NCBI GenBank assembly: GCA_001630475.1
Contig: KV419402.1
Location: 230,744-294,743, forward strand
Direction: 5' to 3'
Origin: Sistotremastrum niveocremeum HHB9708
Taxonomy: Eukaryota; Basidiomycota; Agaricomycetes; Sistotremastrales; Sistotremastraceae
Length of the DNA: 64,000 nt
In this document: positions 1-64,000 of the stretch, in pieces
Numbering within the stretch: position 1 is the stretch's first letter
Layout: every line of letters begins with the position of its first letter
Notes under the pieces: model-generated
Databases searched by the model: none
What the model was told of the DNA's origin: nothing
What the model saw: the letters and a program-made list of their open reading frames with translations, nothing else
Program-made: the position numbers and the translations under genes

Positions 1-251
1 GACTGGGACATACGGCGTCCCTCATGACTCTAGCTGCTAGTAAGAGAAAGCGAGGTCGACATCATCTTCCAGGACAGGTGTTCAAGAGCGCTTAATGATC
101 GAAGCCACAAAAACTCCCAGCTCATGCAGCTTGAGCATGGAAAGGACCAACGAAAGGCAGTGGAAAAAATGAGCGAGAGCACTTCAAGAAGGAGGACGTA
201 GATGGGGAAGAGATGAGGAGCATCGATGCAGTTCGTCTCCTTATATACTCC
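1..251 (-). CDS. Cassette gene 1, 5' part only
   Basis: First unit of the minus-strand cassette array, cut by the window edge. The TATA box is at 241-251, the plus-strand CTTGGCA element at 329-335, and AGATGG-type repeats (minus CCATCT, probable transcript leader) at about 196-218. The first minus-strand ATG lies at 138. A second, at 125, opens 31 codons ending at 30. The 3' block would lie outside the window. Whether the reading frame is real is uncertain; the promoter match to the other copies is clear. Confidence 0.4.
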
Positions 252-820
252 GATTTCACGAGCTTTTGAGATCGGTTCCCGAACGTCGAAGACAAGGAAG
301 GACTCGGACGAGATGTCGAGATGAAGCGCTTGGCAGTGCGATCGACAGCTTTCCGATCGTGGCCACTGTGAATGAAGAGGAGGGCTTCGGAGGATGGTGC
401 ACATGGCTGACAAGTCTTCTGAGGAGGTGCAGAGGCGCCGGAGAAATTCTGTCTTGCGGGAGAATCGGAGATCGTCGTCAGATCGAGAACGGGAAGTCCA
501 AGACAGGCAGCTTGATCATCGATCACTCGATCGATCGGAGAGGACTCCGAGCGCCAAAGATATCGGAACGTTTCGAGATCTATAGGGAGCAGAAACGAGT
601 GTGATGGAAGATACTTGATCCGCTACTCCGAGTAGCGCTCCAGTGTTTTGAAGTGAGAGAGGTTGCCGCCAAGTCCGGATCGAAGAGTTGCAAGGCAATA
701 TTCTCTCTGAAAAGAAGAACCGCCATGTAAGTGAGACTCTACGATGTTCTTGAGAGTTGAACTGCAGCTCTTGGCGAACCGGTCAATATCGCAACAAATT
801 GAAGAATGAGCAACAAGAAA

Positions 821-886
821 GCACCAAACACGACCAAAGCTTCGGTAAAAACTGCAGGCAACATTCGATTTTGAACTCCGCCTCCG
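821..886 (-). repeat. Motif A copy 1, in a long spacer
   Basis: Conserved block, plus strand CCAAACACGACCAAAGC then GAACTCCGCCTC. It lies about 580 bp upstream of the cassette 1 TATA box. On the minus strand the CCAAACACGACC half reads ALVVFGAFLLLILQF, a hydrophobic stretch that recurs in other copies. Distance between the two halves differs between copies, so the whole block is not one conserved coding frame. From here to 2064 there is no convincing gene; several weak plus-strand GT..AG pairs occur around 1010-1660. Confidence 0.75.
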
Positions 887-2064
887 CCTCATCCTCATCG
901 TCGCTGCCGTTCTCGAAACCATGGCGTGTCCATGTGTGCTCGTCGCGCTCTTTGTTCTGCCACGTCCTTGGATGCTCTTTAAGATGCATTGATCCCTCTC
1001 AATGGTGTCAATGGTGAGTTAGACGCGTTCATAAGTGTTTAAAAATTGGCGTGTCCTAACGACATCCGTCCGTCCAGTTTTCTCATGACCTCGCCTGACC
1101 ATCTGGGTCATTGTCCTCCGAAGGTCTCTTTTAGTCATCTTCTATATGTATGTCACGCGTTATCTGGCATGATTGGCTGGATAGGGCCTTGACGCGAGCT
1201 TTTTAGTTAGATCTTACGACACCGTCTGGCTGTTCAATTGGATGTTACGATGCCAAATTCTTCAGAATCGTCGACTAGATCTCATGGACTGTGTTTAACG
1301 AACGAGCTTATGATGGAGCAGCCATACTTCCCACCCTCGATTCTGTCAGTCTTTCTTGTTTTCATCACTGCGAAGCAGCTTTTCTTATTTATGGCAAGGC
1401 CACCGCATTGCCGCTTCCCGTAAGGAATGTCCAGAATTACCCTCGTTGGTGAGTATACTACTCTCCCAAAGTTCTCCGTCTCATTCCTTCAAGCTGCCGG
1501 CCAAGAGGTTGCGAGGTAGCCGTCCTCGCCCCACCGGATAAGCGCTATTTGTACGTTCCTCCTCCTCCTCCTCAGCTCTTATTCTTCCATTGACACACTC
1601 TCATCTCAGTGTCTATGTTCCTTCGCTTCATCGGTCACTTCTCATACTATTAAAGACAGAATCGTATGTCAAGAGCCATCGCCCCCGCCTCGCTCACACC
1701 ATCGCAATCCATGGATTCTTCCTTTCTCACGTACCCGCAAATCCACCGCGAAGATACCTTGCAACAGCTACATACCACGATCCTCGAATCCCTCACTCAA
1801 GTTTATTCTCTTTGACTAAGGCAAAAGTCTCGTTGCATCTCCATATGACACAAGGTCCTGTTTCTGCTCTTGAAAGCTCTACATCCGATTAGATGAGAGG
1901 TTCCTTCGATCGTGTGACAATTCCAAGACCGCGTTTCCTCGCCGTATGCGATAATCCACGACCTGATGTCCCAGAGAGAGGAGCAAACAAAGCCAAGCAA
2001 ACTCAGCGAAGTCGATTTGTTGACTGGAATGTCTATTGATTCTTTTCTGTTGGGGAGCCAGACA

Positions 2065-2952
2065 GTCGAACAAAACATTGTTTATTATCATATCCAAGAT
2101 CGACTTATACAAGACTCAAGCAGCAGGGCGATCAACACTCTCAACTCTCGAACCAATATACAGCCCCTCTACATTCAACCTGAACATGCTTGTTCTCCGA
2201 TCGGACATATAAATGCGGAGAGATGCCGTATACGCTGGACCTGATCGTCAATAAATAGTGGCACGATGCTAGGATATTTGAATCAATGATTGAATTACGA
2301 GAGCGGGATTACTCACTGCACACAGTCCCGCGCATACCACGACGGTATCGATAGCGTTCCTCTGCAAGCGGCATTACATGCTCATAAGCGCTTCCTGGAG
2401 TGTTTCCTCCCAAGTGCTGTAGACCATGTTGCTAGATGGTTGAGCGTCGATCAGGCATTCAGAAATATAGTGTGGAAATAATGACATACCTCGTGCGACT
2501 GCGAAAGGATACGAAATCGCGGAACTTATAATCATCCCGCGCTACATGTATATGCTATCTTCGCCATGAGTAATCTTATTTCCACGGGCCAAAAAGCCAA
2601 AACGACGTACCTTTCTTGAAAAGCGAACTGAATCCAGAGTCCAGTATCTGAGGGGTTCCAGCAGTCTTAAAAAGAGGAACTTCAGAAATCGCATGGCAAA
2701 TAGAGGGATCAAACCGGACTTACCTAGGGCAGCGGCAGAACGAGCCCCCAAGGATAGAGCATGTCACCCGTCAATTCATTCACCCCAGTAGTGCCAGATG
2801 TAACACGTGATGAATGGGGGGCATATCTATAGTCGACCGAGAGAGGAGAGGATAGAGGGGAATAGATGGGCAAGAAGTGTATGAACGATAGATTGAGAAA
2901 TATCAGAGTGAGATGGGGGAATTCGCCCTCTGCTTGCACTCCTTATATACCC
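2065..2952 (-). CDS. Cassette gene 2, spliced, function unknown
   Basis: TATA box at 2943-2952, CTTGGC element near 3030, 3' block at 2065-2100. Minus-strand donors lie at 2719-2724 (GTAAGT), about 2604 (GTACGT), about 2483 (GTATGT) and 2311-2316 (GTGAGT). The last two exons, 2317-2431 and 2141-2268, join in phase into an 80-codon open frame. It contains TPGSAYEHVMPLAEERYRYR and ends in GAVYWFES and a stop, 40 bp before the 3' block. No family recognised. The 5' exons could not be joined without ambiguity, so start and length are unknown. Confidence 0.45.
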
Positions 2953-3290
2953 CCAACAGAGAAGCATTCGGAAAGACCGGGAAGGACGGGGCGATTGAGG
3001 GGAGGGGTCAAGATTGTTTTCGGAACGGAGGTCTTGGCGCTGGGATCTGTGAGCGGGATCTGAGATCGGGACGGAGAGAACGGGGAGACGCGGAAGCAAA
3101 AAGTATACATGCCATGGAGTTCTTCCGCAGATCTCGGAGGAAGGTTTTACGATCTAACTGACTGTCGATCGATCGGGTTCGGCGTATCCGCGATCCGTCG
3201 ATCCCCTTGACAATGTTTTGTAGTAAAGTCTCTCGGAAACATGAAGTAGTTCCGTTCTCAGCGACCTAATTCATCGGCCGACCTGTGCCT

Positions 3291-4282
3291 TTCGATCAAA
3301 AATGTCTGTATATTGTATCCAAACACTGACTACATAGACTCAAAGATTAATTACCTCAGCATGCAGCACACGAGGACAGGGACACCGCCGTTCTCTTGTT
3401 AGCGAGATCCGGAATCCAGGACGAGCGGCTATATAATCTCTATTCTAGACAGCCTTACGTCCAACAAGTAAATCCTCACCCCAAGCGATGACCATTGGCC
3501 AGATCAGGTACGGATTGTTTCGATCTGCAAGCGAATAGTCAATCAGCTGGGATGGTCAGAAAGGCGCATATATGGACTTACGACACTCTTCTGCCACACG
3601 ATAACATGTGCTGTCGAAGCTTGTAGTTCCAGGGCTCGGCCTCAGCTCTGCGCTATCTCACTGGAAAATGTCAATATGTATATGGAAAGAAAGAAAGAAA
3701 TATGGTCAACGCACCGGAGAAATGGATACACGCTCCCTGGCGATGAAAGCAGAGCGATATATGATCGTCGGATTCTGAGAGTGTTTTTATCGTCGGCGGG
3801 AGTTGTGGCTTATGAAGCAGATAGAGTGTACTCACGCCACTTCGACTTCCCGGGGGTAACCCGAAACAGACCGATTTAGTCGATGGGGTCGAAATCTTCC
3901 GAATTCGGCTCAAACCGACTATACGGCGGCATCAAAAAGCAGAAGCCGATAGGAAGAATCCAGCTATTGTATTCGCATGATGAGTATAGGCATGACAACT
4001 GGAATAGCGACGCTCAGGACGTACTTGAAACGCAACGACCACATCTTCTGCGAGCAAAAGATCAACGGAGGAGAGCGTTTAGATGACGGAATCGCTAGGG
4101 GCACGCCTTCGCGTCCGTGGAGGAGCTGGCAAATTACATCGTGGTGGCGTTGGAACTTTCAATGGTATATCGTAGGAACCGACTCTCGAGGAGCGTAAAT
4201 GACTGAGCGATATTCAAGAAGGGCGAAGTAGATGGGGGAGAGATGAAGATATTTGATGCAACTCGTCGCTTATTATACTCCG
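3291..4282 (-). CDS. Cassette gene 3, spliced, function unknown
   Basis: TATA box near 4271-4281, CTTGGC element near 4369, AGATGG repeats at about 4230-4248, 3' block at 3291-3325. Minus-strand donors are visible at 3830-3835 (GTGAGT) and 3576-3581 (GTAAGT). No reading frame stands out across these junctions. It may be a decayed or non-coding member. This copy has motif A upstream. Confidence 0.35.
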
Positions 4283-4635
4283 GCTTCACTAGGTCGACAA
4301 TGTGTCCGGCACAAAAGATCCCGACGATCGAAGAAGTGGAACGATTCGGAGGAGAGACCGGGACAAAAGGCTTGGCGATGCGATTGACAGTTCCACTCTC
4401 GTAGCGCTGAACGATCTACAAGAGGTTGACAGAACAAGGGGGAACTGAAAGAAGCTCTCTGAGGAGATTCAGAGTTCGGACCGGAGAAGTTGTGTCATTC
4501 CGGGAGGATCGGCGTTTCAAAATGGAAGGCAGACTGTTGAATGTCGATCGATCGATGAGTCCGAAGATCTTTAGCGGAAGAGATCTCGACACACGTGCGG
4601 AACTATCAGAGATGAGACCGAATCGAATTCACAAG

Positions 4636-4871: not shown

Positions 4872-5808
4872 TTGCCGACACCGCTATCCTCGCAGCATGT
4901 CGTGTCCTTGTCTACATTCCGCGTCGTTCATTTGGTCAAAGTGTCCACGAGGTGGCAAGCTATCTGAAGCCTTGAATTTTATGCCCCGATAAGTAAAAGG
5001 CGTACGAGAAGTTTTTACGACAAAGCTCTCCACCCTGCGATGTACCTCCTTCGGAGCTCTTGCCTTGATCTACCGTCCTGTCATCTCGCTCTCTGTGATC
5101 TCTATGCGTACACGCATCTTTATGGACTTCTGCATTCGGTAGCCTTTCACGCACGCGTCATCTCTTCATCTGGGGTTCGGTGAGTCGTTGCATTTTCAAC
5201 TGCTGCACATTCGCGTTTCTCAACCACATCAGCTCGTCCGTGCTTTTATAGCTTGCTACTCGTCCACCCCTTGATTGATAGGTATCTGCGGAAACAGTAT
5301 CATGGGTGCGTATCGTCATTATTGCCGTATACGAATTAAGAGCCAATGCAATAACAGAGCCTCGGCGCTGACTCTTCTCCTCGGACCGTCTCCATCGCAC
5401 GTGTGTTCCCCTCGAAGGCTTTTGCATGCGTCCAACGATGCACCGTCCTCGACAAGCCATTTTCTTTCCAGCCAGCGCTCTCCTCGAGATCACTTATAGC
5501 CAAAATCCCGGTCGCAGTGCATCGTTCAATTCAAGACGGACCCCGGATAAACTTTTTTCACGAACAGTGAGTGCAACAGTCGTTCTCGTTGATATCTTGA
5601 GTCACCTACTGGATGCTGTCACCGTCTTCGTGTGCTCAGAGTCTGTCTTCAATCATACCCATCAATCAACAACGTAAAATTACCTATTGATACGACAAAA
5701 CAATATGGAACCCCTTGAATCAATATGAAAGGCTACCTTTTGTCTTGTACATTCAGAGGGAGAGCGGCTTGCGCATACTACTCACAGAAAGACTTCTTTC
5801 CATGCCAC

Positions 5809-6762
5809 GTCGAATAAAAATTGGTTTATTATCCTATCCAATATCTGCTTATACAAGACGTCTTCGGGTCAACTCGACACGTCTCCATGTCAAACAAGCG
5901 TATAATCCCTGCCACTACTCAAAAATCGCGCTCGTTCCGACACCGACTATACAAGTGAGGGCTGTAACTCGCTCGCTACTCATTGGAACCGAAAAAAATA
6001 CAAGCTTCCAAGTATATTCAGCAACGCTCAATAAATTTTGAAATGCTGAAAGAGCGAGATCACTTACAAGTTGTATCTGTTCCAACCAATACTTCAGGTT
6101 GTCCGTCAATCAAGGACCTCACAGTCGGGGAACACGACACGATAATACTCACATTCAAACACTCTCACAGCGGGATTCTTCTACGACACCGCGAACCTCA
6201 CTAACGCGGACGACAACAATCAGCAGCTGAGAATCAGTCCAATTCTGAACGGAACACACCCTGTGGATCAACGATGTCTTCGAGACGCATTATGGTGGGA
6301 AGTTGGTAGGAAGCCGTCTTCGGGTCGTTGACGCCTTCCTGATTTTCGCATCAGCAACTCGTCGAGTCTTCACTTGCCAGCGACAAAGGAAACGAATTCG
6401 ACGCACCTGTGTGAAAGAACTATCATAGCTCCCTGTGGAATTGGTGGCGGTTGTAGCACTAAGTGTTCCGCGTGATCGATGACTTTCAAACTACAAAATG
6501 TTCGGTCTCAGGGACAAGATGAAAAGATAGTCAATGAAATTTGACATACTCATCGGGGCTCGACATCGTCCAGCACTGGTCCAATCAGAGTAATGGAGGA
6601 AGATATAAGTTCTTAAGGAGGAGCCTCAGGGCGTAGCGTCCGCAAGAAAGGGAGGGTAGAGGTGGGCATAGTGAGTGGCCGTGAGATGAATGATGACCTA
6701 GATGGGGGTAGATTCAAACGAGATGGGGAAAAGTCATCGTTTACTCGCTCCCTTTATACTCC
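5809..6762 (-). CDS. Cassette gene 4, spliced, function unknown
   Basis: TATA box 6752-6762, CTTGGCAT near 6863, doubled AGATGGGG repeats at 6701-6728, 3' block 5809-5850. Donors at 6147-6152 (GTGAGT) and 6062-6067 (GTAAGT). A last exon 6004-5915 is open for 30 codons ending at 5915. A second frame across the same junction is also open, so the protein is unresolved. An internal open exon reads TNSTGSYDSSFTQ, followed after an intron by EGVNDPKTASYQLPTIMRL. No family recognised. Confidence 0.4.
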
Positions 6763-7113
6763 CCAACGCACGCCAAAGAGAAAAGCATCCGGAAGATCAG
6801 ATCGAGTTGCTCGATCGACGGAACGCCCGAGGAGGGGATCGAATGTTGCGCTCGGAGTGGAGTTCTTGGCATCATGATCTACATGTTGGATCTGAGATCG
6901 GGATGGAGGGCACGGGAGGGAACGGAAGCACCTGTACAAATAGAAAGCCTTCCGATGATCGCGGTTCTTGACACGCGATCGCTCCGCCCGATTCATGCAC
7001 TCCACAACCCAGCCTTTCCACTTCTCAATATTTTGAATCGATTCACTCACGCCTTGAGCCACCATGAAATTCAAGTTCAATATCGGGCATCTGATTCATC
7101 GGCTGCCGGCATA

Positions 7114-8120
7114 TTTCGACCAAACAATTCCTTTTATTGTATCCAATAACTAAACATATAGACTCACGCATACAGCGACGCTCTACACCAGACCAGAAAG
7201 CCCTATCACTTGATCCGCTCTCCTCCCCACCTAGCGCTTCCCACTACTCGCGTACCCCGTTCCTCGATTGAGATGATAGTCGGCGGTAGGCAAGATGGGA
7301 TCGCACTCCGATCGCGGTGCTCCACAATGCGTACATGCACCAAACTAGATTTGATTTCAAGGAGCCTCCCTCTACGAGTGAGCTTACAGTCAGATGACGT
7401 GAATCTAAAGGGCATATATGAGTACTTACGCCATGCCTCTACTGGATAGACACTTTCCTGATCAGCATATACGTATCCACGACATGATCAACAGTTTGAG
7501 TACGGAGTACTGTGCAATATTAATGAGAGTGTAAAAAACAATAAAAGCCATCGACATACGAGGTCAAGGCGTGACGCGACGGCATTGACGGCGCCGGAGG
7601 GTTCGATACTGCATAAGTTCTTGGCGTCAGCGGGATTTATGGTTTAAAGAACGAGGTAGACTATACGTACCCCGGTCTCGATTTCGATGCTTGGCAAGGT
7701 GGACTGGCTATATCAATTGCTTGCCAGTCAAGCAGATTCAGTTGGATGGATGAGCGACGATACGGCGGCATTGCAAGCACTCCCAACCAAGAGCCCAGAC
7801 CGCTATCGTAGTCCATGCTGAGTATACGTCTGACGACTGGAATAGGGAAGACCTGAGACTTACGAATGTTATAATGCCGTGCGAGCCTAGACTTTCAACA
7901 GAAGAGCGGCGAAGCCTTCAAGTGACGATGACGTAGAGTCCCCTTCACGAAGAGTAGCGGAGACAAAGAACTTGCATCGTTGTGGTGGTGGGATTACGCT
8001 GAAGACGAGAGTAAGAACGCCTGAAGAGACTGAGCAAATAAGGGAGGAATATCCAAGAAGGTAAACGTAGATGGGAAACAGATGGAGATTTCCCTTGAAA
8101 GTCTCCTGTATTTATACTCC
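7114..8120 (-). CDS. Cassette gene 5, spliced, function unknown
   Basis: TATA box 8111-8120, CTTGGCA near 8200, 3' block 7114-7150. Donors (minus GTAAGT) at 7858-7863 and 7424-7429. I could not build a confident reading frame. It belongs to the array by its promoter and 3' end and has motif A upstream. Confidence 0.35.
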
Positions 8121-8515
8121 AGCTTCACGACCCGGACGATCTCTCCAACCGAAGCCTTCCAAATATCAAAGAAGGGTAAACGACTCGGAGAAGAGAAAGA
8201 GCTTGGCAGCCGATCGACGGCTCTACGATCGTGGCCCGTTCGATGAAGAGGAAGGCTTCGGATGATGAAGAGTCCATCGGGGTCAAGAACGTTTTCCCAG
8301 GAGAGTCAGAGCTCCGGCAGTAGAAGTCCTGTCATTCCGCGACGATCGGGGATCTGGAGTCGAAGATAGACAACTCCAATGTGATCGACGATCGATCGAC
8401 AGATCGATCTGTATGACAGAGTCTCCCGCACCATAGAAGATCTCAAAACATACGAAAATTCATCCGGAATGAAGATCGATAGCCCCACACTTTCCGAATT
8501 CAACAATTTCAAGCT

Positions 8516-9387: not shown

Positions 9388-10228
9388 AGACGGGATCCGT
9401 TGTTCGCTTAGTCTCCTCGCTTCATGAGCTATAATGCGTCAATGGTACGTTCCTCACTATACTCACTTCATGTTCTTCCGCTTGTCTACTGTCCCTCTCA
9501 GTGTCCACCTGTTACCCCTCTGTGCTCGACTTTCCTTTCGACTAGAACCGCCCGATCTCAAACTCCAGAGACAGCCACCTTCGATTTGCTCATTCGATTT
9601 CAGCACCGAAGATGCTTCCATCACGAAGCGCCACCGCAACCACCGAGACATACACCACAATCCATTAGCACAGCGTCCCGAACTCGTCATGATCAGACTC
9701 CCTCTTCTCTTCGAGAGCTTCCCACGAAGACGAATGCTACGGTCAACTGGAGCATCGATACGAACCTTCTGTGAAGATGCTCAAATTTTCGAAGACAACG
9801 AACGGGCTCCTTCTGCGATATTGCCATACAAGTCACTCAAGAAGCTCAAGTCTGCGCGTTGGATCAGTGACTGAAGTCCGAGTTTCGCATGCGTGAACGC
9901 AATTTACTCTGAAATGCTATCTTGGTCTTACTATCTTGACGACCGGCGGTGGATACTGCAAGATTTACGACTGTGACCACGGAGTAAACTAGAGCGCTGT
10001 GAATGAGAGAGCGAACGCGCGTGCAAGTCTGAATAATGTCCTTCGAACATAATTGCTTATTTGACTGGGAAAACAATTTCTCTCAGTGCCGCAGCGCTGA
10101 AGTCTCTATTTGGCTACTATGAAACTTGAATTTTGGGGGATTGCGAAACAAGCTGAAGCAAGTTCTCTGTACGAGCTGTGTCGAGTTGGATGTGCACCTC
10201 GCTTCTCGGCTTATTGGTAGGACCGAGA

Positions 10229-11128
10229 CGTCGAATAACATTTGTGTATTATAAAAATCAATGTCTACATATACAATAGGTTACGAAGCAAGAATACAAA
10301 GCCACCACTCTCGTCTGACTCCAAAGGACAATTTCCCCTTCAAAGTCGCACTCTTCCTTTGATGGAGTACCAAGATACCGAGGGGGAATCTTACCCGTCC
10401 CTCTCCGTACGAACCAGCATACTCAGTCTAAGTCGATTATTTAATAATTAGCAACAAAGATATTGCCCGAGGATATAATCACTTACTGCTTAGATTCAAC
10501 ACAGCTGTTCTCCAAGCTTGTCAGTCGGGATTCTCGAGATCGCGTATCATCAGAACTGAAACGTACTCAAAACGCTAACGCCGAACTCATGCTTCTTGAT
10601 TCTCGCCATGGTCCCAGTCGAGACTGATGATAAGAGGTCGACGCTCGGGGATGAGAAATGATAATGAGAGTGAAAGAATGGACGCACATTGTTTGACTCG
10701 CCTCGGCTCAGGCTCTGGGACCGACGTCCTCTGTGAACCCATCCCTGGTTTCATCGTCAGCACTACGAATCCGTCATCGACAAACCAAACAAAAAGGACT
10801 TACAGGACATCATGACTGAAGAAAGTACGATGCGTTGAACGACGCGGCTGAGGAAAAATCTCGAGGACATTAGTTCATAGACGTTCATATTGACACAACG
10901 CAAGATGAGGCATACCTGAGAGAGATTGAAGATCTCCAGAACGGACCCATGACTTGCGAGCAATCACATAGAACGTCGTGCGATCGGACAGACGTAGGAG
11001 CACGTCACAGATCCGACTAGAGGACAATATGTGTGGATAGATTGAACGGACACTGCGCACCTCTAGATAGAGATAGATGGGGGTAAGATGGGGGAAACTC
11101 GACCTTTTCCCTCCTCTCTTTATACTCC
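10229..11128 (-). CDS. Cassette gene 6, spliced, function unknown
   Basis: TATA box 11118-11128, CTTGGCAT near 11230, AGATGG repeats 11073-11096. The 3' block at 10229-10260 is weak: it keeps the CGTCGAATAA part but not TATCCAAG. Donors (minus GTAAGT) at 10798-10803 and 10491-10496. An early open stretch includes DRTTFYVIARKSWVRSGDLQ before a GTATGC donor near 10915. No family recognised. Confidence 0.35.
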
Positions 11129-11554
11129 CCCAAACTCAGAAGCATCCGAGAAGAACGGACCGATCTGCCCGATCTCCGGAACATCTTCATACGTCCAGGG
11201 AAGGGATCGGGAGTCGATCTCGGAGTGGGGATCTTGGCATTCAGATCTTCGCCTCGAATCTGAGATTGGGAAGGAGGAAGCGGAGGGATTCGGGTCGAAA
11301 ATATGCGCATATAGACCCTTGGCGCAAGCTCGCAAAGTCTTCTTCCCGTCCGACGATCTCGGATCTCCTAGCAGATCTCGATACGAGGGGTCACCTCCGT
11401 TGATCTAGGATATAACAAAGACCTTCCAAGGCAGCTTTTTTGACGGTTCAGGCATTATTTGTCGTTCAGAATGAAAGGTGAGGTTGTGCATAGGGTTAGT
11501 AATTGGAGGCTGACAGATAGACAGTGACCTTGAAGTTGTGCTAGGGACCTGTCA

Positions 11555-12555: not shown

Positions 12556-12874
12556 ATCGCCCCGATGCATCGGATGAGCCGGAAGAGGTTGAGAGACGAT
12601 CGGCTCCCCGTTGAGATTGACATCTGGACGATCGGGGACGGACTCGATCCTCGGGAGAAAATCATATTCAAGAAGCGCTGGGATATCCGTCGATCGAGAG
12701 ATCTCCCGGAAGCTTCGGACGATCGAAGAAGAGGGATCCTCGATCTACGCATACCGTAAACCCACAGCGTTGCAATCGAGAAGCAATGGAATCGATCTAG
12801 CCATTGCTTCCGACGATCGAGTTGCAGTACGTCCCTGAGCTATGTTCTGACGTTCCGAAATTCGGAGGGACATC

Positions 12875-46440: not shown

Positions 46441-46475
46441 CTTATAGGACTGCTGCAAACCGATAGAGTAACGTC

Positions 46476-51833: not shown

Positions 51834-53071
51834 AACGAGTTCTTGTTCCCTTTCGTGGCCCCAATCCTGCGCAGCATTGACCCGAAGTGCATCCATGTTG
51901 TGAAACACAGGAAGACGTCTGTGATATCATGGTGAGCGAATTGCAGCACTTTTCGGAGGAGTTGCTTACGGTTACGTTTCTATAGTGGCTCTGGCTGGCT
52001 GAATCCTTCAACGCGTCCTCTTTCTCAACGAAGTGCTCTATTCCGTATATCCTGGAACTAAAGCTTTCTCCTCCTCCTTAGATTCAATGACACCCCTTGA
52101 AATTATGATGAACTCGCGTTCGACACTGGTCGTTCTGGAAACTCGAACACATCCAATCCGCCCACCAGCGTCTCCAGAGGCTTTTCAACGGCAAAGAACC
52201 AACGTAGAAAGCTACCTGTAAAGCGACGCGCTAATCTCTGCCTTCTGTGTCCTCTTGCTTGCTATGTTCAACATTAACACGCTGCTCCCATGCGGCCAAC
52301 GTCTTCTCTGCATCCAACATCCTGTCAAATCCACTCTCGGTACATCGGCTATGGCCTTCAAATGCCGGTGTCCGTTAATTATGCGGCTCGCCATAGCAGT
52401 TAAGATCTCCAGACGTTCATCGCGCATACGATACGATGATGCGTATGCTATCACGTACTGTGCGTATACCTTGTCGTATCCCCCTGCCTCTCACGATACT
52501 GATTATCATTAATCATCCTCAGCCTCCCTTAGCTTCATCTCAATTCTTCTATCGCAGTCCTTCATCTGAGCCCCTTGACCAAAGATCTTCAAGTCTTCAT
52601 CGCGCAATCCCTGACTTCATTCGCTGCTTACGCGCCTGTGGCCAAGATCATGTCAACACGTCATCTCAATACCGCCAACACCCTTTTTGGACAATTCAAG
52701 GCATGCTCATTGATATCATGCTTCCTCTTCGGATTACCTCGACCTTGTCATCATGGGCGTGAATTCCAGGGCTGTCAAATAGCGACAGTGCCATGCACTT
52801 TTCTGCGTCTACGGTCCGCTTCATGGTTCTATTTCCCCACAACGGATTTCAGACTTTGCAGATGATGGTACCATTAGTTCTTCGCTTCGCCTATTAACCC
52901 TATCCTTTCTTTGTATTGCATAACGTCGCCAATCGCGTGGAGAGCGTTGAGTGGGAGTTTGGTCCAAAACATCATGTATAAATCGTGCTTTCAAGAATAT
53001 TATAGACCGATTCAAATTCGATAGCGCCGCCGATACCAGCATCACACATGCAACCGCTTTGGAGCGAAAAG

Positions 53072-54048
53072 ATTTTCGAACACAAAATATGTAATATTCT
53101 ATCCAAAAACGTCAGACGACATACAATTTCTGGATACGTGGCCGACAGATTTCAATTGCCATCCCACAGCCGCTCATTCCAATCCAAGCGTATGTCGGCC
53201 TCTTCGGACAGGATACCGCTCCCTCTCGATCGCCAGAATCGACTGTGACACCACAAGGTCTCCGTCGCTTGCACTCGAGCCGAAGCATGCCACTACCTCA
53301 GATTCTCAACTCTGTAGAATCGAGAGTCAATCGGTGAGGCGAAAGTTCGAAGGACAAGTAGAACTTACGAAGCATGAGCCGAAGTTGATTCGAGAATGAT
53401 CTCTGAGTAAATTAGGCGGTGTAGTAAGCGTTTGCCCAGCTTTTGTGATCTAGTACTTCGACAGCCGTTCATTAGCTCAGAGCACAGAATAAATTAACCA
53501 AACAAAGAAACTCACTGGAACTTGCTGGATAGTGTCGAGGCGGATAATCCACAGGTAAGCAGGACTTCGAGAAATCCGCCCGTCCAGTGGTCCCTCCAGC
53601 GCATTAGTATTGACGCCAAGAGCCAAACTTGCCAAGGCGTCACAGATGGACGGGGCAGCTCGCTTGACATGGGACACGATGGTGGGCTGGGCCAATTCAC
53701 ACGAGGCAACTGTGGCAAGAGGAAATATGAGAAATTGATGAATATAACAGACCACTTGACTGATTTGAAATACGCACTCTCTCATTTCCAGACACGAACT
53801 GGGGCACGATATTCGCATCCTGACAAAGATTTCAGGGCCATTACTGTAGATGGTGATGTAGATATCATGAGAGAGGACGAGTGGAGGCCGGACGCACCAT
53901 GTTGGGAATATATGAGGACAGCGACACCGAAGGGAGGGGCGGAACGCATGCTCCGAATCAGAAATAGACCAAGAAGAGAGCGTGATAGATAGAGACAGAT
54001 GGAGGGCAGATGGGGATTCACGCACCTTTCGCCCTCTCTTTATACTCC
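53072..54048 (-). CDS. Cassette gene 19, spliced, function unknown
   Basis: TATA box 54039-54048, CTTGGCAT at 54274 (further away than usual), AGATGG repeats 53997-54015, 3' block 53072-53110. The first ATG after the leader (about 53951) opens MRSAPPFGVAVLIYSQHGAS. A large exon between a CACAG acceptor near 53719 and a GTGAGT donor at 53510-53515 is open in two frames; one reads LASLALGVNTNALEGPLDGR. A further donor is at 53363-53368. No family recognised. Confidence 0.4.
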
Positions 54049-54441
54049 AGCTCTGACGGTCGGATAGAATCGTTACGAAATTGAATGGATGAAGCGATCG
54101 AAATGATCGAGAGGATTCGGGGAAGAAGAGGGCGGGGATCGACATTTGCGATCAGGAGTCCGAGATCGACGGTCACAATGATCGGGAGTGAAATCGGGAA
54201 GAAGGCTTCGGGTGGAGTGAAGGTTCCGGAGATCGAGAGAAGTCGTCTCAGTTCGGGAGGATCGTGGAGTGAAGGCTTGGCATTTTTTGCTTCCGTCGAA
54301 TTCTATCCCCCAGACCACTCGATCCCGATCTCTCCGAGTCTCAGTCATGTGTTTCGATGATCGTAGCAGCTCAGGATGATTCGATCTTGAGAAGTGAGAG
54401 CCGCCAAAATCAGAAGCGGAAGCAGAATCTCCGAGGGACAT

Positions 54442-55203
54442 ATTTCGATCACGAAAGAAATTATATTTATCAAAGACGGAGATACATGGACTTGAGTCCT
54501 CACATCTGCAACGGCGACTTAAAGTTCTCTTTGCGTCACAGGATTCTGTATCCCTCCCGAGACAGCAACTTTAGACGATCATAACAGAGAGAGGATGAGG
54601 ATGAGTACGATGTCAAGAGGGGTAAAGGTTGAAAACTTACATTGCTAGAACTCCAGATAACAGTTTTAGTATGATAGAGATCAATCTCGGCTTCGCAAGT
54701 AGATGTAGCCATCGAAGTGTTTGCCTGATATATTCCGTGATGAGACCACCACGGAACGATGCCAACAAAATGCAGGCTTACCACGAGTCTTGGTTACATA
54801 TCGACATGTGTCGAGATTGCATATCCGAAACTCGTAGTTTGAGGCATGGATGAGCCAGCAATGCAGCTATCCGGACTTGTCCTCACGCCCTTCAAGTGAG
54901 AATTCGGTCAACACGCGGTAAGAATCGCGAGAGTAGAGTGGAACACTTACATTTCTCCCAGCCGACGTTCGATACAGCTTTATCCTTCAGACGCATTAGA
55001 TGCTTCCTACTGCGACTGTGGCGCATGATGATCTCCGAGCGTATTCAAGATGGGCACGAAGAAGAGGAAGGCCAGATTTAGACAAGAATAGGTGCGAGGC
55101 TGAGTGCAACCAGGCGATGAGGGGTGGAACGAATAGATAGGCAACATGGGGATAGATCGGGTGAGATGGCGAAATGAGAAGTGAGTCGCCACCTTTTATA
55201 TCG
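54442..55203 (-). CDS. Cassette gene 20, spliced, function unknown
   Basis: TATA box 55193-55203, AGATGG-type repeats 55148-55170, 3' block 54442-54478 (variant ATTTATCAAAGA). Donors (minus GTAAGT) at 54945-54950 and 54635-54640. No confident reading frame. Motif A lies about 590 bp upstream. Confidence 0.35.
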
Positions 55204-55785
55204 TAGAGCTCATGATCTGATAGAGCGGGAGGCCTCGGGATTGAGACAAGCCAAGAAAGAAGCTGAGGGTCGACGGAGATCGAGTCGTTGCCTCAGGAAG
55301 GAGCCGGAACATCGATCGACAAGCAGCGATGTGAGGCCAGACTTGAATAGCTCGAGATCGGCGACATTCTCATTGATCGATTGATTCATTGACAAGGGGA
55401 CCTTTCGGCGGAAGTAGAATTTCCATCTAGGACGATCGTAGCTGAGCGCTGATCGTCGGCGCATCCCTTGATCGTCGGACGAAGAGGATGTTCTTCGTCG
55501 ATCTTCGGGACGCTCAGGCCCCACAGTCTTCTTGAAACGATCTGCGATGGTTTAGGAACCAGTCTGTCATTACATGAGTGAATCGTACCTGACTATAACA
55601 TTTTTTCGAATAAATTAGCGGTAGACTCTTTGTGGATGAAGCACCATGATAAGACGAGAGAATCTAGTGACTCAAAAAATCAGGGTACAAATGAACATAC
55701 TCATTAACATTATCATATACCGAAAAATTGATTTCGAGTGCCTCAGTCCCGTCGAGAGCAAACGGATGACGAGGAAGAGAGTTTC

Positions 55786-55847: not shown

Positions 55848-57186
55848 TTTGTGGTCCTCGCCATCTGGTAGCTTTGTGCTCTGGCGGTTTCCTGGTTCTC
55901 GTTTCCTCATTCGCATCCTCGTAGTCGATGGTGTCACAGCCAAAGTTCCGGAGCTGATGATGGATGGTCGCCCTGGAGCTGAATTTTCTCTGGTGAGTAG
56001 AGGCGCGTCTACGCTGTTCGTCTTATCACTCATGCTCCTGCCTAGATCTACCGACAGGTTGAATGTGATCATTGCGACGATCTGTTGTGTATCAAAGTGA
56101 GTGCTTTGCATGCGAGTATTCTCACATGTCGAGCAGCTCTCACAGATCCGACGAATTTATCTGTCCTTGTCAGCTCATTGATGGTATCGCATGGCGCGAT
56201 GCAGGATTAAGGATGTAGTAATTGACTGGATTGCGGGGATTTCATGCTCAATTCTAGGGTGGCATTGCGATCTTGTTCCTGGTACTCGTTCCATTTCATT
56301 TCTCTCGGCCTTCACTGATCGTTCTTCAGCGATCGAGGCGCCTTGACTCTCGATCGATTGCGTACACAACCCGACCCTCGTTGGTGCCCGAAGGAACTTC
56401 GGTCTAACCGCAATCCTCATCTCGTATAACTCTAAGCGATATTCTTGGCTCAGCATTTTGTCTCCACATGCCTTAACGCGTACCAAAATATCGATGACGG
56501 TCCTGTCACCTGGGATTCTTTCGAGATCTCAGACCCCCCATCTTTTGTCAACAAACATCGGGCGACACGGTTCTTGGTCTTTGTTCCCCCTGATGAAGGT
56601 TCTCAAGATCGTAGTGTATACCTGGGGCCGTTCCGATCCCTATGGCCGAGTACCCCGTCGACGTCTGTGCTCCCTCCATCCCTACAATTGGACCACTCTC
56701 ATTCCACTTGAGCATGCTTGCCTATTCATGCGGATACCTAGACTATTTCTCGTGCAAATGACGCTACACTCCTCGAAGCTGCCGCCGCGTATTATCAGTG
56801 CAATCTATCACGACCGAGTATTCGACATGCCGGCGCTTCGGCCACATGATGCCTTTACCTCTTCCTTCTGTATCGACACCAAATACTATACTGTCAACTT
56901 TCTCTGTGAATCGCAGTGCGTCGACGCGGCACCGTTTCTCATAGAATGCTCGGGAACCCACACCTCCAATCATGAACCATGTCCTCAGACTCCTCAACGA
57001 GTAGTGGCTATGCGAAGACTAGCTTGGTAGTCAATTCTCGAGGCTCCGAGGCAGATGTGTGGATCATATGGAGAGCAACTTGCGACCTCCTGACGATCGC
57101 CTAGACATATATTCTCCTCCATCTTGATCACGTAGTGAAACCCAATGTCAATTTCACACTTCCCTAGCCATGTACAGCTCCAGAGC

Positions 57187-58080
57187 GATTTCGATAAAAA
57201 AGCATTTAATATTCTATCCAAAATGTGGCAAGCAAACGACATCAGAGCTTTCACGGTACAAATCTCACACCGTCTCTATCGGTCCCGTCTGATCCAGAGC
57301 GGCCTATATCGCTCTCCCAAATATATATCACTGACTCTTCTTTCGCTCTTTCACCCATCAAATGCGGACCATTGAACTATTGTGATGTCACCGGGTATTG
57401 GGGTGAGGATCCTATCGACATAGTTCTGAAATGAAACTCAGCGCTGAATATATGAGAGATTGAGAGAGAAAGTGTTCTTACATAGTCGAGGGCAAAGTCT
57501 TCGCGCGATGCGATTTGTGCCCCCACTCAGACGATCAAGGAACTGCTAAGTATCTGGAATTTCAAGCACGAAGTCAGCGTTCGTGAACGAGAAATAATCC
57601 AAGAACGTACCTACCAGTAGTCAGAGATTCCCCGTCTCGAGATGTACGAGGGGTCATGCGTTGTCGGACCGGTTCATCAGATGTACGCATGAAGGACTGA
57701 GAGCGACGGGGATCAAGTAAGGGGCCATGTCGTACGATCGTATCACCGATGCGAGTCTGCAGCAAAAAAGAGATATTTAAGATACGAAAGTCATTTGAAA
57801 TGAGAAGACACACCTCGAATAATTGCCCACGATCAACTCGACGATACGCCAGACATCCGAGCATCCCATGCACCGTGTAGACCAGTCATCGAACAGCATC
57901 TAACATCCTTGCGTCCTGACGAATAATTGTGCGGAAAGGGTTGAGTTCTGGTACAGGGAGCGATGGGAGGTTGAGAACAAGACTACGTTGAGGTATAAGA
58001 ATCCAAAAAGCTTTTAGTGAGATGGTGATAGATGGCGAGGAGATGGCGACTGTCAACAGAATCGTGGGCTTTATATACGC
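57187..58080 (-). CDS. Cassette gene 21, spliced, function unknown
   Basis: TATA box 58070-58080, AGATGG repeats 58018-58047, 3' block 57187-57222. Exons: one ending GCLAYRRVDRGQLFE before a GTGTGT donor near 57811, then TRIGDTIVRHGPLLDPRRSQ (from about 57758), donors at 57605-57610 and 57476-57481, and a last exon 57351-57425 of 25 codons (NYVDRILTPIPGDITIVQWS). No family recognised. Confidence 0.45.
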
Positions 58081-58580
58081 CAGCTGTACCACCTCGTGCA
58101 ATGCCAAGACGAGATCGCTGACACTCGATGGTAGGCACAGATCGGATTTGAGGCTTGAATCGGGAGAGAAGCGGGACATTACTGAGATTTGAGAATGGCT
58201 TCTGCGGAAATGAGATCGAGGGTCGGGACGAGGGGGGACGATCGAGAGGAATTCCGATGAAGGAGGAAATGCCGCGCAGGACGGAGGATCCGCTGATCGA
58301 CAGAAGCCTCCTCTAATCGGGATGATCGCCGTGCGAAGCCCTGAGCATCGCATTATCCGATCGAATTGCCATACCGAGAGGCTCGGAGAAGTCTTCTGCG
58401 ATCAAGCCCTTGGGGGTCAGATCGGTGATCAGGGGGCAACTCGGAGGTGGATCAAGATGACAGGTTCCGACAATCGAACGTGGTATCCGAGCTGCGAGAG
58501 ATTTGTGCTTAATATCGTCATCCCTCTGATTCTTGGCGTGCCTGAATTTCATTTGGCAAGTTGCGACTTCACTGGTGAGA

Positions 58581-59430
58581 ATTCCGATCAAAAAATAGTC
58601 TATTATATTCAAGACCTCTCGAACGAAATCACACTGTCCGAGAACAGATTCTATCTGCTTACACCCTTGCTTTGTCTCGATCCAGTGGTTCTCTACCGTA
58701 CCGTGATCCGCCGCCGCGACCCACTGTCGAAGCATTAGAAGAGCACTGTCAGTATGCAGGTGAGGGCGGCACCGAATGAGAACTCACGCTGGGTGAAGAG
58801 ATTTTCAGTAGACGTTCTTAGAACCACTCGGCTCATTCAAGAGATGACGCGTGATGACACTATGCATAGCAGACGCCCTTCATTATATCAGTCAATGAGA
58901 GAATGCGATCAAATGTCAGTACTCACGAATATGCGGCCGGGACATCCGGAGTCCTCGTCCATAAAATTATCCCCGGCATCCATGCAAATCCTGGCAATGG
59001 AGGGAATGAGATTTGAGGACACGCAAGGGAATGAAAGTAGTGGTACTTACTGTCGAGACGAAACAACGCTGAACGGGCGGATCGGCATGGTTGTTTATCG
59101 CCTCAAAGATCACGTTGACAGGGTCTCCTGCACACTCCGACATTCAGAGTGAAAAATGTGAAGGATGTAAATAAAAAACTTACTATTGAGCGTCAGAATG
59201 ATCAAGTACGTGACCTCCTCACAAAAGTGGTTGAGTCGAGAGGCGCCAGTAGTTCGGCGTGCAACGCAGGAGCAAGATCTCATCCGTGCATAGGTGAATC
59301 AGAGTCCTGAGAGCACAATAATACGACAACAAAAAACCTCGCATCAAAATGAAGAGGGGTAGATGTGGGAGATGGGGATAGATGGAATTAGATGGGGAAA
59401 TTCATCGTTGGAGGCCTCCTTTTATATCGC
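58581..59430 (-). CDS. Cassette gene 22, spliced, function unknown
   Basis: TATA box 59419-59430, AGATGGGG repeats 59369-59399, 3' block 58581-58615. Four clear minus-strand donors: 59178-59183, 59045-59050, 58921-58926 and 58782-58787. The last exon (from about 58733) is open in one frame through the 3' block (HGTVENHWIETKQGCKQIES) and in another for 22 codons. Frame unresolved. Motif A lies upstream. Confidence 0.4.
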
Positions 59431-60027
59431 GTTTGGGACAGCGGAAGGGGCGGGAGGAGTCGCGATGGGAGTAAATCGTGGGCGCGGATCGGTGGGTTAA
59501 ATCATCGAAGAGGATTCTGAGCTCCGGGATCGAGTCACCGTCTCAGTACGGATCGGGAAGAGGAGTCAACATACAAGGAAGGGATCGTTCTGTAGCAGCT
59601 CGGGATTGGCGTCATCTCATCGATCGATCTGCAGACTTTGAAGGCCCGCGGAAGTAAATCGTGGCTCAAGGGGATGATCGAGGGAGCCTCCCTGCGATCG
59701 TCGGAAATAATAGAGTCGTCCTTTTCGATCGTCGGAACAGTAGCAGATCCTTCCGCGTGCGCCCTATTGAGAGTCATTAGATACGATCAACTTAGCTCCC
59801 CATCGATCTTACCTTGCCATCACCTCCGTTTAAGATAAGTGCTTATGCTCCGGGGCACTTTGATGGGCAGAAGTTTGTTCCGAGAAATCTGCCCGAAGAG
59901 GAGATAGGTCATCAGCAAGAAAATGAGTCAAGATCTCGCAATACTCTTGGATCCCTCACCACACAGAAACACTGATTTTGATGAGTCTTTCATCGCCGAC
60001 AGGAAAATGAGAGACTTGGAAGAGACC

Positions 60028-60086: not shown

Positions 60087-61248
60087 TCAACATCGTGTCA
60101 CGATTTTCGTGCCCTCGTCGTTTCCTTAGCTATCCTCTTCCTGGAGTCCTCGCTTTCTTTTTCGGACAACGCTTTGTGTGCGGTGGAGAGTAGAGAACTC
60201 AGATAAATGGTCTTGTAATTCTGGTTGGGGAGAGCGCACCTGAATCAGCGGCTGTCGCTGACTTTTCTCTTCCAGGAGCTTCTTGTGTGCAACCTGAAAG
60301 CGCGTCTTCATTCGATCAGCTAACGCTCTACTGTGACTTCTGGAATAAGCTTTCGACCAGGCAATAATGGATCTGCGGTGAAACGGGGCTTGAACTGCTC
60401 ACGAATACTGTCAATATAGTAGTAATGCCTCACGCTCTGCGGCATCTAAAGCGTATGGATAGTTCGCCACTTCTCTTGGTCGCATCACCCATTTCCAGCA
60501 TTGACAGTAAGTCTTGCGATGCTCTCGTGATCATCTGATGATTTACAACTCTCGTAGTCCTGTTCAATTTGATAGATCTACTGTCCGTGGTGGACCAGTA
60601 TGCATGGGAATGCTCCCTTTCATCCTGCAAGATCAAGTTTGATCTCAGTTGGTACCGGTCAAGACATAGCTCAGACTCATCTTACTAGATTATCCTCGGC
60701 CGCTTTTCTTCGCATCCTCGGCGGATCATTGTTCTACGCATCCCTTTTGGTTCCTCGATCATGGCTCTGCTGTTAACGTTATATCCTACGTCTTTCTGTT
60801 GCCAATGATTCTTGTCTTTCCACGCTCGGCTGTCTGCGCTCGAACTTGCTTCTTTTCTTCGGCGCGCACAATTGTAAACGTCATCTGGCAATATCTCTGG
60901 CCGATCGCATGGGCTCGTATTTTACGGGTCTGGAAACTTTCGAGATGTGTATATCCTATTTCATCCTCTTCCGAGCTTGATCTGCCATTGTTAATGAATC
61001 GTATTCTCGCCGTTGTACAGTCAAAACCCTCCAATTACTTCGAGTCTCACGCTTGTCTTAGCTTAAGTGTGACACCCTCCATCGATTCCGATGATCGTGA
61101 ATTCTACTGCTCAGACTGTTCGCCGGAAGTCAAATGATTGACGCTAGACTTTCAAGCTCAAAATCAAGAAGATGAAACAACCGAGACGTCGAGATAGTAG
61201 GGTTCGAACAAGGAATCCAAGCGTTGTCCTGTCAAACCAAAGGACCCG

Positions 61249-62164
61249 ATATTCGAACATAAAGCAATTTATAATGTATCCAACATTGAAACGGACAAAA
61301 ACGGTTGACTTGAGACTGCTGTAACTCAGATATTCTCAATACTACACTCCAAAAGTCCTCGGGAATCTACCCGAGGAAACGTACCGCCGATACCGAACGT
61401 CTTACGCAAATTTCAAATTCGCGCTCGTCGCTGTATTCCGAATCTTGAGGTGCAAGAGCTTCGTCGAAAGAAAAGATTAGGAAGTAGAATATTTGTGGAG
61501 AGGGCTGAACGTACGACATGCTTGATAGGCGATCATAAGCATTCACTGGGAGACACGACGCTCTAGCCGAACTTCTGTATAAATCAGTTAGTAAATGAGT
61601 ACCGAGCGAGAGAATATGGACGTACGCCAGGCAGTAAGAACTCTTGAGTCCGTTAATTTGCCGGTGAGATACGTCAACGTCATGAGCTGTGACGAAGATA
61701 AATATTGATGTCAGAGATCGTGAGGTACGACAGAAATGCGAGACGACTCACTGTCAGAAATCTCTCAAGCATGCATTGGCAACACCCCAGGACAGATCAA
61801 TCGGAGATTGAGTCTCTGCACGGACCCTTTTTCCCACCTATCGCGCGCTATTTGGAAGACGAGGAGCGAAAAGAAACAAGAGAAAAGAAATTTAGACATA
61901 CCTCCGAGAGTGATCGCTGTGGGACACTGAAACCGGCCGTACTATACAGCGAAGCCCATACGATGCGGGGATGTTCTGCTCGATCACCTCGATGTTCGTG
62001 TTCGGGTTGTAGAGCCCTCAAGAACTCAAGCAAACAAAGAATAAAGACGGCGGGGTGGGCGCGATTGCAAGGCAAACATGATTAATAGAGGATAAAACAA
62101 GAAGGGGTGGATAGATGGGGAAAAGATGGAGAGTAGCGACGCAGTTTGAGGTCTTTATATACCT
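61249..62164 (-). CDS. Cassette gene 23, spliced, function unknown
   Basis: TATA box 62152-62164, CTTGGCAT near 62243, AGATGG repeats 62112-62130, 3' block 61249-61288. Donors at 61746-61751 (GTGAGT), 61620-61625 and 61509-61514 (GTACGT). The last exon, 61367-61458, has a 30-codon frame, LAPQDSEYSDEREFEICVRR, ending SAVRFLG. No family recognised. Confidence 0.4.
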
Positions 62165-62485
62165 CAGCGGTCAAGAAGCGTCATCTGAAGCGCTCTCGAA
62201 AATTGAATTGCAGGGGGAATCGGACGAGATGAAGGGGTAGAAAAGGCTTGGCATTGACATCGGAAGACTCAGAGATCGGAATCGTCTCGTGGATCAGGAA
62301 AGAGTCGGAGGAAAGAAGCCAGACATGTGTACACTGCGCTCTCTCGATCGAGAGGGTCGGAGTAGTTGGCGCCCGTCGCTCCCGACAATCGACAAGATCC
62401 TCGATCGGTCTTCCAGAGATCGATCTTGCTCCCAGGGCGCTCCTGGCGCTCCACCGGATCGGCGAGATGTCGATCAGTTCCGGGT

Positions 62486-63326
62486 ATTCGATCAACAAAT
62501 ATATCATATTCAATCAAAATATTGTGTACATGAACTAGCTGCCAGCGAACTAAGTCACCAGAACACTTCCCAGACTATCAAACTCGCAGAGCTGAAGGAC
62601 AAACCAAATCTACCCTGCCGTTCCATTGCTGCTTCTAGCTGGGAGCGCAATCCCGAGCGTCATGGCAAAGCCACTACGAATTTACCATCATCGATTACAT
62701 GAAGACCCAAACAGCGCAGAATGGTTTGCAGTGGGACCTGAGCCACTTGAACGGTACGAGCTTGATCTAGCACGAGGAATTAGCGAGGGTTGAGGGAGAA
62801 CAACGGATGGAAAGGACGCACCGAGGACCGGTAAGAACCGTCGACACGGAAGCCGAACTGACGATAATAAGTCTCACCGGCGCTCTAGAATTAGGTGAAT
62901 ACAATTAGTCGTAAAATTTTTTTGAAAGAGGAGGGGAAGCACTTACAGATCTCGGCGTGACTACCTGACTAGTCTTCGATTTTCTGGAATAGATCGAGAA
63001 GCGCCTGATGACCACGGAACGCGCGCGTCACGCCAAGTGAGAGCTATAGAGACCGTACGAAGGATAGGAAAGAGAGCTAAAACCAGTGATCAGAACCAAG
63101 ATTCAGACCAAAATGACGAATCGCACCGCAAAGACAGTCAAAGCGAAGTCCGCCGACATGTCATATCGATCGACGTCCGCTGAGATGTTTTCTGATGGTC
63201 ATGTCATCCATGGGGTTCAAACCAAGATTGAGGGGCAATGTAGAGAAGTCGCCACTTGCATGCAAATATACGGATAGATAGGTAGTAGATGGGGACTTAA
63301 TCGTGGATGTTTCCTGCTTATATACG
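62486..63326 (-). CDS. Cassette gene 24, spliced, function unknown
   Basis: TATA box 63317-63326, CTTGGCAT near 63414, 3' block 62486-62519. Donors at 62941-62946 (GTAAGT) and about 62816 (GTGCGT). The last exon, 62660-62766, carries TVQVAQVPLQTILRCLGLHV and ends DDGKFVVALP. An exon before it is open in three frames. Motif A copy 11 lies upstream. Confidence 0.4.
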
Positions 63327-63847
63327 CAAGCTTTGGCGGCGCCGCGAGGGCATCGGACGAATTCTCCCGACATTTGAATGAGAGGGACGATCCGGAGGAT
63401 GACAGCGACCTGGAGCTTGGCATCGTGAGCATCGGATCGATTGACGTTCTAAGCATCAGAATCATTGAAGATGCGTCAAGAGTGATGGGGAGGGATGAAG
63501 CATCTAGGAAGCGCATCCCGGGATCGAAGATCGTATCTCAGTCCGGGAGTATCTGGAAGAAGCAGAATTGGCGCTCACCGATCATCGTTTTCCAATATGG
63601 CAGTATGGCAGTATGGTCGGCGTGTCATCTTCATCGCGTCCTCTTCAGAAAGCAGCTTCCCTGTCAGATGCCCGATCGAAGGATTTTTGGGCTTGATCGT
63701 CAAGGGCTTGAGGTTGGCCAGCCTGAGAAATCGAGAGAAAAATCAGGCATGTTATCAAGACATTGATCAAAGTCATGACGTACGAATTAGCTGAATTCGT
63801 CTAGCTCGTCTGTGAAAGACGGTGAATGAGAGCTTCAGCGGAGAAAA

Positions 63848-63905
63848 GCGCCAAACAAGCACAAACTTAGAAAATCGCTTGGATATTCCATTCTAAACTC
63901 CGAGT
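63848..63905 (-). repeat. Motif A copy 11
   Basis: CCAAACAAGCACAAAC then AAACTCCGAG, about 530 bp upstream of the cassette 24 TATA box. The minus frame SLCLFGAFL is shortened by a stop. The spacer runs off the window end. Confidence 0.55.
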
Positions 63906-63926
63906 AGGACCCTGGATTATATCAGA

Positions 63927-63998
63927 ATATGTCGGGTGCGATTTCGGACATCCAACCCAGGATTTCGCAGAAATGTCAGGTACGATTTCGGACATATG
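63927..63998. repeat. Two copies of a GATTTCGGACAT-containing word
   Basis: ATGTCGGGTGCGATTTCGGACAT at 63929 is followed 46 bp later by ATGTCAGGTACGATTTCGGACAT, the start of a possible tandem repeat cut by the window end. Confidence 0.4.
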
Positions 63999-64000
63999 AG

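Follow-up and report, generated by a model that had tools for sequence, protein, structure and literature searches.

The stretch analysed here, hereafter the window, comprises 64,000 nucleotides of contig C9 (KV419402.1, positions 230744-294743) of the basidiomycete Sistotremastrum niveocremeum HHB9708, currently named Sertulicium niveocremeum (Sistotremastrales), whose genome is assembled in 111 contigs totalling 34.7 Mb. It lies within a tandem array of minus-strand cassettes, in which a common promoter block and a common 3' block enclose interiors of unrelated sequence. A preliminary description of the window had counted about 24 such cassettes, all in one orientation. The array proved to be real and larger than claimed: a profile search of C9:170001-374743 returned 39 promoter blocks (nhmmer, E<1e-4) over C9:217113-327130, 39/39 on the minus strand, the only plus-strand match in the stretch searched having an E value of 6.3. 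Twenty-three of these promoters fall inside the window, and the array extends past both of its edges, by ~14 kb to the left and ~32 kb to the right. The cassettes do not occupy the whole of the window, as had been proposed: the part from ~27.6 to 48.1 kb is devoid of them and holds an eIF3a copy and a Plavaka transposase, and a plus-strand module is also present in the array.

Promoter seeds were collected with a TATA...CCATCT expression and the profile was built from 39 of them. All 39 copies agree in thirteen columns of the block, the letters of the seed expression among them being imposed by the search. In each cassette, a TATA box and CCCCATCT repeats are followed by a CU-rich leader. The upstream regions are also conserved over ~300 bp (for example 259..577, minus strand), with TCTCGATC, TCGATCGA and ATGCCAAG occurring in 20, 19 and 16 of the 39 respectively. 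At the other end, the 3' block (consensus TATnTATGnAnnTnTTGGATAGAATATAAAnTATTTTTTGATCGAA, derived from 31 copies) resembles in sequence a cleavage/polyadenylation region. Profile matches (E<2) place it 568-1071 bp downstream of 35/39 promoters and of 22/23 of those in the window; one of the 22 paired blocks lies outside the window, and the promoter at 11124 has no called 3' block. In tandem pairs, the distance from a 3' block to the next promoter is usually 334-471 bp. The 12-mer core of the 3' block, with up to two mismatches, is found 26 times in the window against 5.15 expected, a number reached in 0/100 shuffles; 22 copies have the orientation described earlier and 4 the opposite one. The recurrence of this block, noted before, is thus borne out both by the excess of its core and by its pairing with promoters. 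Units carrying their own promoter and their own 3' end signal, the latter called for 35 of the 39, correspond to what defines a family of spliced long noncoding RNA genes.

The cassettes, all on the minus strand, are given here in window coordinates. The leftmost, 1..259 (TATA 247), exits the window at its left end and has its 3' block outside, at C9:230030. It is followed by 2057..2961 (TATA 2949, 3' block 2097, four predicted introns) and 3282..4289 (TATA 4277, 3' block 3322), whose four predicted introns lie at 4024-3964, 3835-3775, 3714-3661 and 3581-3525. Next come 5801..6770 (TATA 6758, 3' block 5841), 7106..8128 (TATA 8116, 3' block 7146, four predicted introns) and 10228..11136 (TATA 11124, four predicted introns), the last with an approximate low end, its 3' block being uncalled. 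The row continues with 11546..12563 (TATA 12551, 3' block 11586), 12867..13757 (TATA 13745, 3' block 12907), 14651..15510 (TATA 15498, 3' block 14691), 17819..18774 (TATA 18762, 3' block 17859), 20028..20983 (TATA 20971, 3' block 20068), 21309..22091 (TATA 22079, 3' block 21349), 24196..25127 (TATA 25115, 3' block 24236) and 25460..26472 (TATA 26460, 3' block 25500). An orphan 3' block without promoter (26801..26848, minus strand), probably a truncated cassette, borders the cassette-free stretch. Beyond the latter, the array resumes with 48102..49003 (TATA 48991, 3' block 48142, three predicted introns), whose interior is single-copy in the genome, then 49315..50081 (TATA 50069, 3' block 49355), 50496..51159 (TATA 51147, 3' block 50536) and 53066..54056 (TATA 54044, 3' block 53106). 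The 3' block is weak in 54434..55212 (TATA 55200, 3' block 54474), which is also without a predicted intron scoring >=7. The remaining cassettes are 57182..58089 (TATA 58077, 3' block 57222), 58577..59438 (TATA 59426, weak 3' block 58617, four predicted introns), 61243..62173 (TATA 62161, 3' block 61283) and 62478..63336 (TATA 63324, weak 3' block 62518).

The plus-strand module, CCAAACACGACCAAA ... GAACTCCGC, was modelled from 13 of its 17 copies. These 17 matches (E<0.05) in C9:170001-374743 are all on the plus strand, 11 of them in the window: one at 817..890, upstream of the head cassette with TATA 247, and others starting at 4797, 8688, 14336 (weak), 16054, 22651, 27564, 51764, 55774, 60019 and 63841. 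Fifteen of the 17 sit 458-615 bp upstream of a minus-strand promoter, and a typical unit has a plus-strand module upstream of the head cassette, as is the case for most heads, and then further cassettes. Since the modules stand upstream of head promoters, the array is a row of divergent units. The plus-strand regions below 14 modules also display intron signals (21 sense versus 8 antisense and 8.6 shuffled), weaker than those of the minus-strand cassettes.

Candidate introns were scored on donor, branch site and acceptor, using matrices set by hand from the basidiomycete consensus. At scores >8, the 39 cassettes contain 89 candidates in sense, versus 7 in antisense and 13.9 in dinucleotide shuffles; for the 19 promoters examined from other clusters, the numbers are 36, 3 and 6.3. 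The splice signals first described between promoter and 3' block are therefore strand-specific, another property that defines spliced long noncoding RNA genes. Cassettes usually have two to four short predicted introns, mostly ~45-75 nt. By eye, the 46 internal exons examined fall into size groups around 60, 79 and 130 nt. The most widely shared interior words are splice-donor and intron words. One word, CATATATG, is common to the last introns of one cassette group (window 3525-3581, 7372-7429 and related introns, minus strand).

Conservation differs between flanks and interiors. In blastn comparisons at E<=0.01, 63 matches are found among the 39 upstream regions (11.9 kb) and 6 between introns (7.2 kb), versus 4 between exons in 22.95 kb, 1 of which involves cassettes without a called end; the interiors are indeed unrelated, as initially reported. 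Two of the 39 interiors were searched in the genome and each matches only itself. Exons and introns were compared in detail in 5/39 cassettes, picked as best-aligning. Their identity exceeds that of shuffles by 0.22 in the promoter core, 0.22 in the 3' block, 0.08 in the flanks on either side, 0.03-0.11 in intron cores and 0.02-0.04 in exons; the absolute identity of promoter core and 3' block is 0.74-0.77, and exons are near random. In the same five cassettes, exon 4 measures 77-80 nt, with length changes that are not multiples of three and a near-random sequence, and the first exon up to its donor has an identical length in 4/5, with an ungapped identity of 0.29-0.42 (at wrong offsets, mean 0.26-0.28 and maximum 0.37). 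Over 79 introns of the array, intron cores stand 0.95 score units above shuffles and adjacent exon windows 0.46-0.57. This excess is consistent yet modest, and the compared pairs are not independent; its cause could be constraint on introns instead of faster change in exons. A constant upstream motif, unrelated sequences in the part to be transcribed and clustering are, together, also the properties of autonomous piRNA-type genes.

The preliminary description had called for a genome-wide search with the flanking blocks. A pattern search with the promoter block found further copies outside the array, both on C9 and on nine more contigs: the strict pattern has 44 distinct sites in the genome, starts 2 bp apart being merged, and a reversed control pattern has 1. 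Of the 44, 19 belong to the 39-promoter array; a further 3 lie outside it on C9, on the plus strand, and the remaining 22 on the nine other contigs. Extrapolation from the sensitivity of the strict pattern, 19/39, suggests ~90 promoter copies genome-wide. Sister clusters include L031 (3047-3094) and L033-L040 (C27, C42, C45, C54, C68, C80 and C9:93.8-97.5 kb). Several of them are within tens of kb of a contig end, and their 3' blocks are, by eye, unlike those of the array.

Tests of open reading frames (ORFs), first-ATG ORFs, internal exons and peptides, of low power below ~80 aa, revealed no coding potential above chance. With a free choice of plausible introns, the best ORF averages 78.3 aa versus 78.5 aa in shuffles keeping the splice motifs (39 cassettes, 30 shuffles each, Wilcoxon p 0.69), in line with the initial caution that coding was not proven. 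The 19 promoters of other clusters gave 73.1 versus 71.7 aa (p 0.86). Four overlapping slices of the window eIF3a gene, taken as positive control, reached 159-215 aa versus 64-76 in plain shuffles, so the test is able to detect a gene. First-ATG ORFs have a median of 19 codons for 18 expected, a purine at -3 is present in 19/39 cassettes, which is at chance, and hydrophobic, signal-peptide-like N termini in the first ORFs of the 39 cassettes number 1 for 1.2 expected. The kept ORF and signal peptide that would define a secreted protein family are thus missing here, ORF lengths and N termini being at chance. An open frame runs through 37/46 internal exons (33.9 expected). All-against-all peptide comparison at E<0.05 gave 9 sense, 5 antisense and 7 shuffled matches, none <1e-3 in any set; the cassettes share no peptides beyond chance, which agrees with the earlier remark that last-exon frames have no mutual similarity. 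The cassette ORF that is longest relative to chance (160 aa) retrieved nothing at E<=0.1 in a protein-database search (29 candidates). An amino-acid pattern seen by eye in exon 2 of the group 217113, 224207 and 229652 was dropped, as there is no third-position excess: a hand count for the pair 217113/224207 only gives 9 differences at codon position 1, 6 at position 2 and 7 at position 3.

On the RNA side, no Rfam (gathering threshold) or tRNA match was found in the window, and 35 predicted transcripts displayed no secondary-structure stability beyond shuffles (mean fold z +0.3). Their first fifth is CU-rich (C 0.34, T 0.33) and their last fifth GU-rich (G 0.29, T 0.30).

From these sequence features, we consider it probable that the cassettes form a tandem gene family, transcribed by RNA polymerase II into spliced long noncoding RNAs. 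The units would be co-regulated, and their RNAs spliced and polyadenylated. The conserved parts are what a transcript requires for initiation, splicing and 3' end formation; selection would act on the making and processing of an RNA and not on the letters of its body. According to published work, introns are often required for RNA accumulation in basidiomycetes (PMC3744415, PMC4935854, PMC7017817), so several introns in a short transcript fit selection for accumulating mature RNA. Between the two readings initially offered, the spliced noncoding RNA family is favoured, and fast-evolving secreted or recognition proteins are disfavoured by the coding tests.

Several observations weigh against a noncoding family. 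Splicing and 3' ends in the cassettes are predictions, and short unconstrained peptides would escape ORF tests that have little power below ~80 aa. With one fixed, best-scoring intron set, ORFs reach 61.5 versus 56.4 aa in shuffles (p 0.20), being longer than the shuffle mean in 21/39 cassettes, and in 1/39 cassettes (279734) the ORF exceeds those of all 30 shuffles. Relative to whole-transcript shuffles, the first ATG is displaced downstream (median 78 versus 37 nt, p 0.0002); against shuffles keeping the local composition, the shift weakens to 78 versus 50 nt and is not significant (p 0.10). On the plus strand, 2/14 regions below modules likewise surpass all of their 30 shuffles in ORF length (mean 112 versus 91, p 0.22), and the public gene model SISNIDRAFT_464771 (272 aa, window 55646-57101, plus strand) covers one module and its downstream region. 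A database search with one plus-strand ORF overlapping this model had the model itself, on the same contig, as sole match. By eye, at least 4 of the 13 aligned modules interrupt its frame with a stop or an additional base, so that this frame is not common to the module family; SISNIDRAFT_464771 may be a real gene at its own locus. Lastly, any link of the cassette RNAs to a pathway through a target, a small RNA or a phenotype would be hypothetical.

As for the role of such RNAs, we tentatively propose that the array may supply a pool of unrelated mature RNAs, the diversity of the pool, perhaps as small-RNA input, being the product. Argonaute (Piwi) domains, at five loci spread over four contigs, and RdRP domains, also at five loci, are encoded in the genome. 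A sequence-independent function is almost as probable: what matters would be the act of transcription, a conserved leader or 3' end, or the mass of spliced RNA, for instance by holding chromatin in an open or closed state, with exons as neutral filler. This fits exons near saturation in which no motif, structure or frame was found, together with strongly shared upstream regions. On the other hand, the several introns kept in a 650-nt RNA suggest that the processed RNA matters, and intron cores are better conserved than exons, which is not expected if the whole body is neutral. Both roles are hypotheses, and we place the diverse pool slightly above the sequence-independent one. A stronger version, which we regard as rather doubtful, is that ~90 co-regulated spliced noncoding RNAs have exons driven apart faster than introns and flanks, diversity itself being the product. 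The RNAs could then be, for example, guides or identity tags, and the system the RNA equivalent of hypervariable gene families.

It is unlikely that the cassettes encode fast-evolving short secreted or recognition proteins of effector type, with diversifying coding exons between a constant promoter and 3' end. Tandem hypervariable effector and venom gene families do combine conserved flanks and introns with diverging exons, as does the array. Moreover, the layout recalls that of small fungal protein genes, the CU-rich first fifth of the transcripts resembles an mRNA leader, a few isolated ORFs are long (279734, 284787) and SISNIDRAFT_464771 overlaps one plus-strand module. Unlike these families, however, the array has no kept reading frame. 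Neither ORF length nor first-ATG ORFs, signal peptides, the -3 purine or open internal exons depart from chance. Between members of the best-aligned group, exon lengths vary by non-multiples of three; no peptides are shared, and the 160-aa ORF has no database match at E<=0.1.

Still less probable is that the functional RNA resides in the introns. In snoRNA host genes such as UHG/GAS5, exons are less conserved than introns and there is no long ORF; the array is alike in both respects, with intron cores more similar to each other than exons (0.95 versus 0.46-0.57 above shuffles) and CATATATG recurring in the last intron of one group. But the excess over exons is modest, and CATATATG is confined to part of the family, occurring in the interior of 8/39 cassettes. 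Unlike UHG/GAS5, the window contains no snoRNA or other Rfam family, so that the recognisable intronic snoRNA of a host gene is lacking, and the predicted introns, mostly ~45-75 nt, are probably too short for standard snoRNAs. We give even less credit to the idea that the cassettes are decayed tandem pseudogenes, left over from an old protein family. Frames are absent and weak residual exon homology persists in one five-cassette group, as decay would leave them, yet promoter, splice signals and 3' block should have decayed like the exons, whereas promoter core and 3' block retain 0.74-0.77 identity and intron signals are equally strong in other clusters.

It is very unlikely that the blocks are the recurring termini of a transposon or of another family of mobile elements: copies do exist on several contigs and a Plavaka transposase lies within the cassette-free stretch, but the array keeps one orientation over 110 kb, with bounded spacing between promoter and 3' block and introns throughout, the two searched interiors match only themselves, and the window compared with itself (blastn, E<=1e-5) gives 36 direct and 0 inverted matches, short terminal repeats being liable to escape. 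The preliminary description had itself raised the case of known transposon ends; none were found, by a genome search covering 2/39 interiors and by blastn, which is blind to short terminal repeats. Like the protein family and transposon ends, a pheromone locus is disfavoured: a pheromone/receptor (B mating-type) cluster was considered and rejected, the 25 STE3 matches listed being on C13 and C35 and none on C9.

Among known systems, spliced noncoding RNA genes of this layout can be compared with two kinds of clustered precursors. Primary piRNA transcripts of Caenorhabditis are unspliced. Caenorhabditis type I piRNA (21U-RNA) genes are described as thousands of clustered autonomous units with a constant upstream motif (PMC3597512, PMC11262695), and their primary transcripts as ~28 nt long (PMC6436959). 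The array resembles 21U-RNA genes by its clustered, putatively noncoding units, constant upstream motif and unrelated transcribed sequences, and differs from them by predicted transcripts of ~650 nt instead of ~28 nt, which have multiple predicted introns and a block at the 3' end. In grasses, reproductive PHAS loci are clustered too, and produce spliced, polyadenylated noncoding precursors with unrelated bodies and a shared miRNA target site. The array has in common with them clustering, spliced noncoding precursors (predicted here) and unrelated bodies; unlike the shared miRNA target site of PHAS precursors, its most widely shared interior words belong to splice donors and introns. No description of such an array was found in searches of open-licence papers. 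Autonomous piRNA genes and other clusters of noncoding precursors come nearest to it in kind, and the multi-intron form in divergent units, in a fungus, appears to be new.

If transcribed, the array would represent a large fungal family in which the parts that make an RNA are conserved and the body of this RNA is not. It would then become a testable question whether selection maintains RNA making regardless of content or favours difference between copies. With dozens of copies under common promoters, it also offers a compact system for studying splicing and small-RNA handling of arbitrary RNA.

The cassette-free stretch of the window carries other features. A DUF6532 domain match (family of unknown function) lies at 28967-29437 on the minus strand (E 1.5e-6), and a Plavaka-type transposase at 37632-39032 on the plus strand (PF18759, E 1.9e-56). 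A second eIF3a copy occupies 42452-45209 (plus strand); over 2.78 kb its DNA shares 92.2% identity with the one at C52:50890-52371. Its annotated protein has 782 aa, residues 1-777 of which align at 90% to residues 1-799 of the other copy (1043 aa); it is probably a diverged duplicate inside the array.

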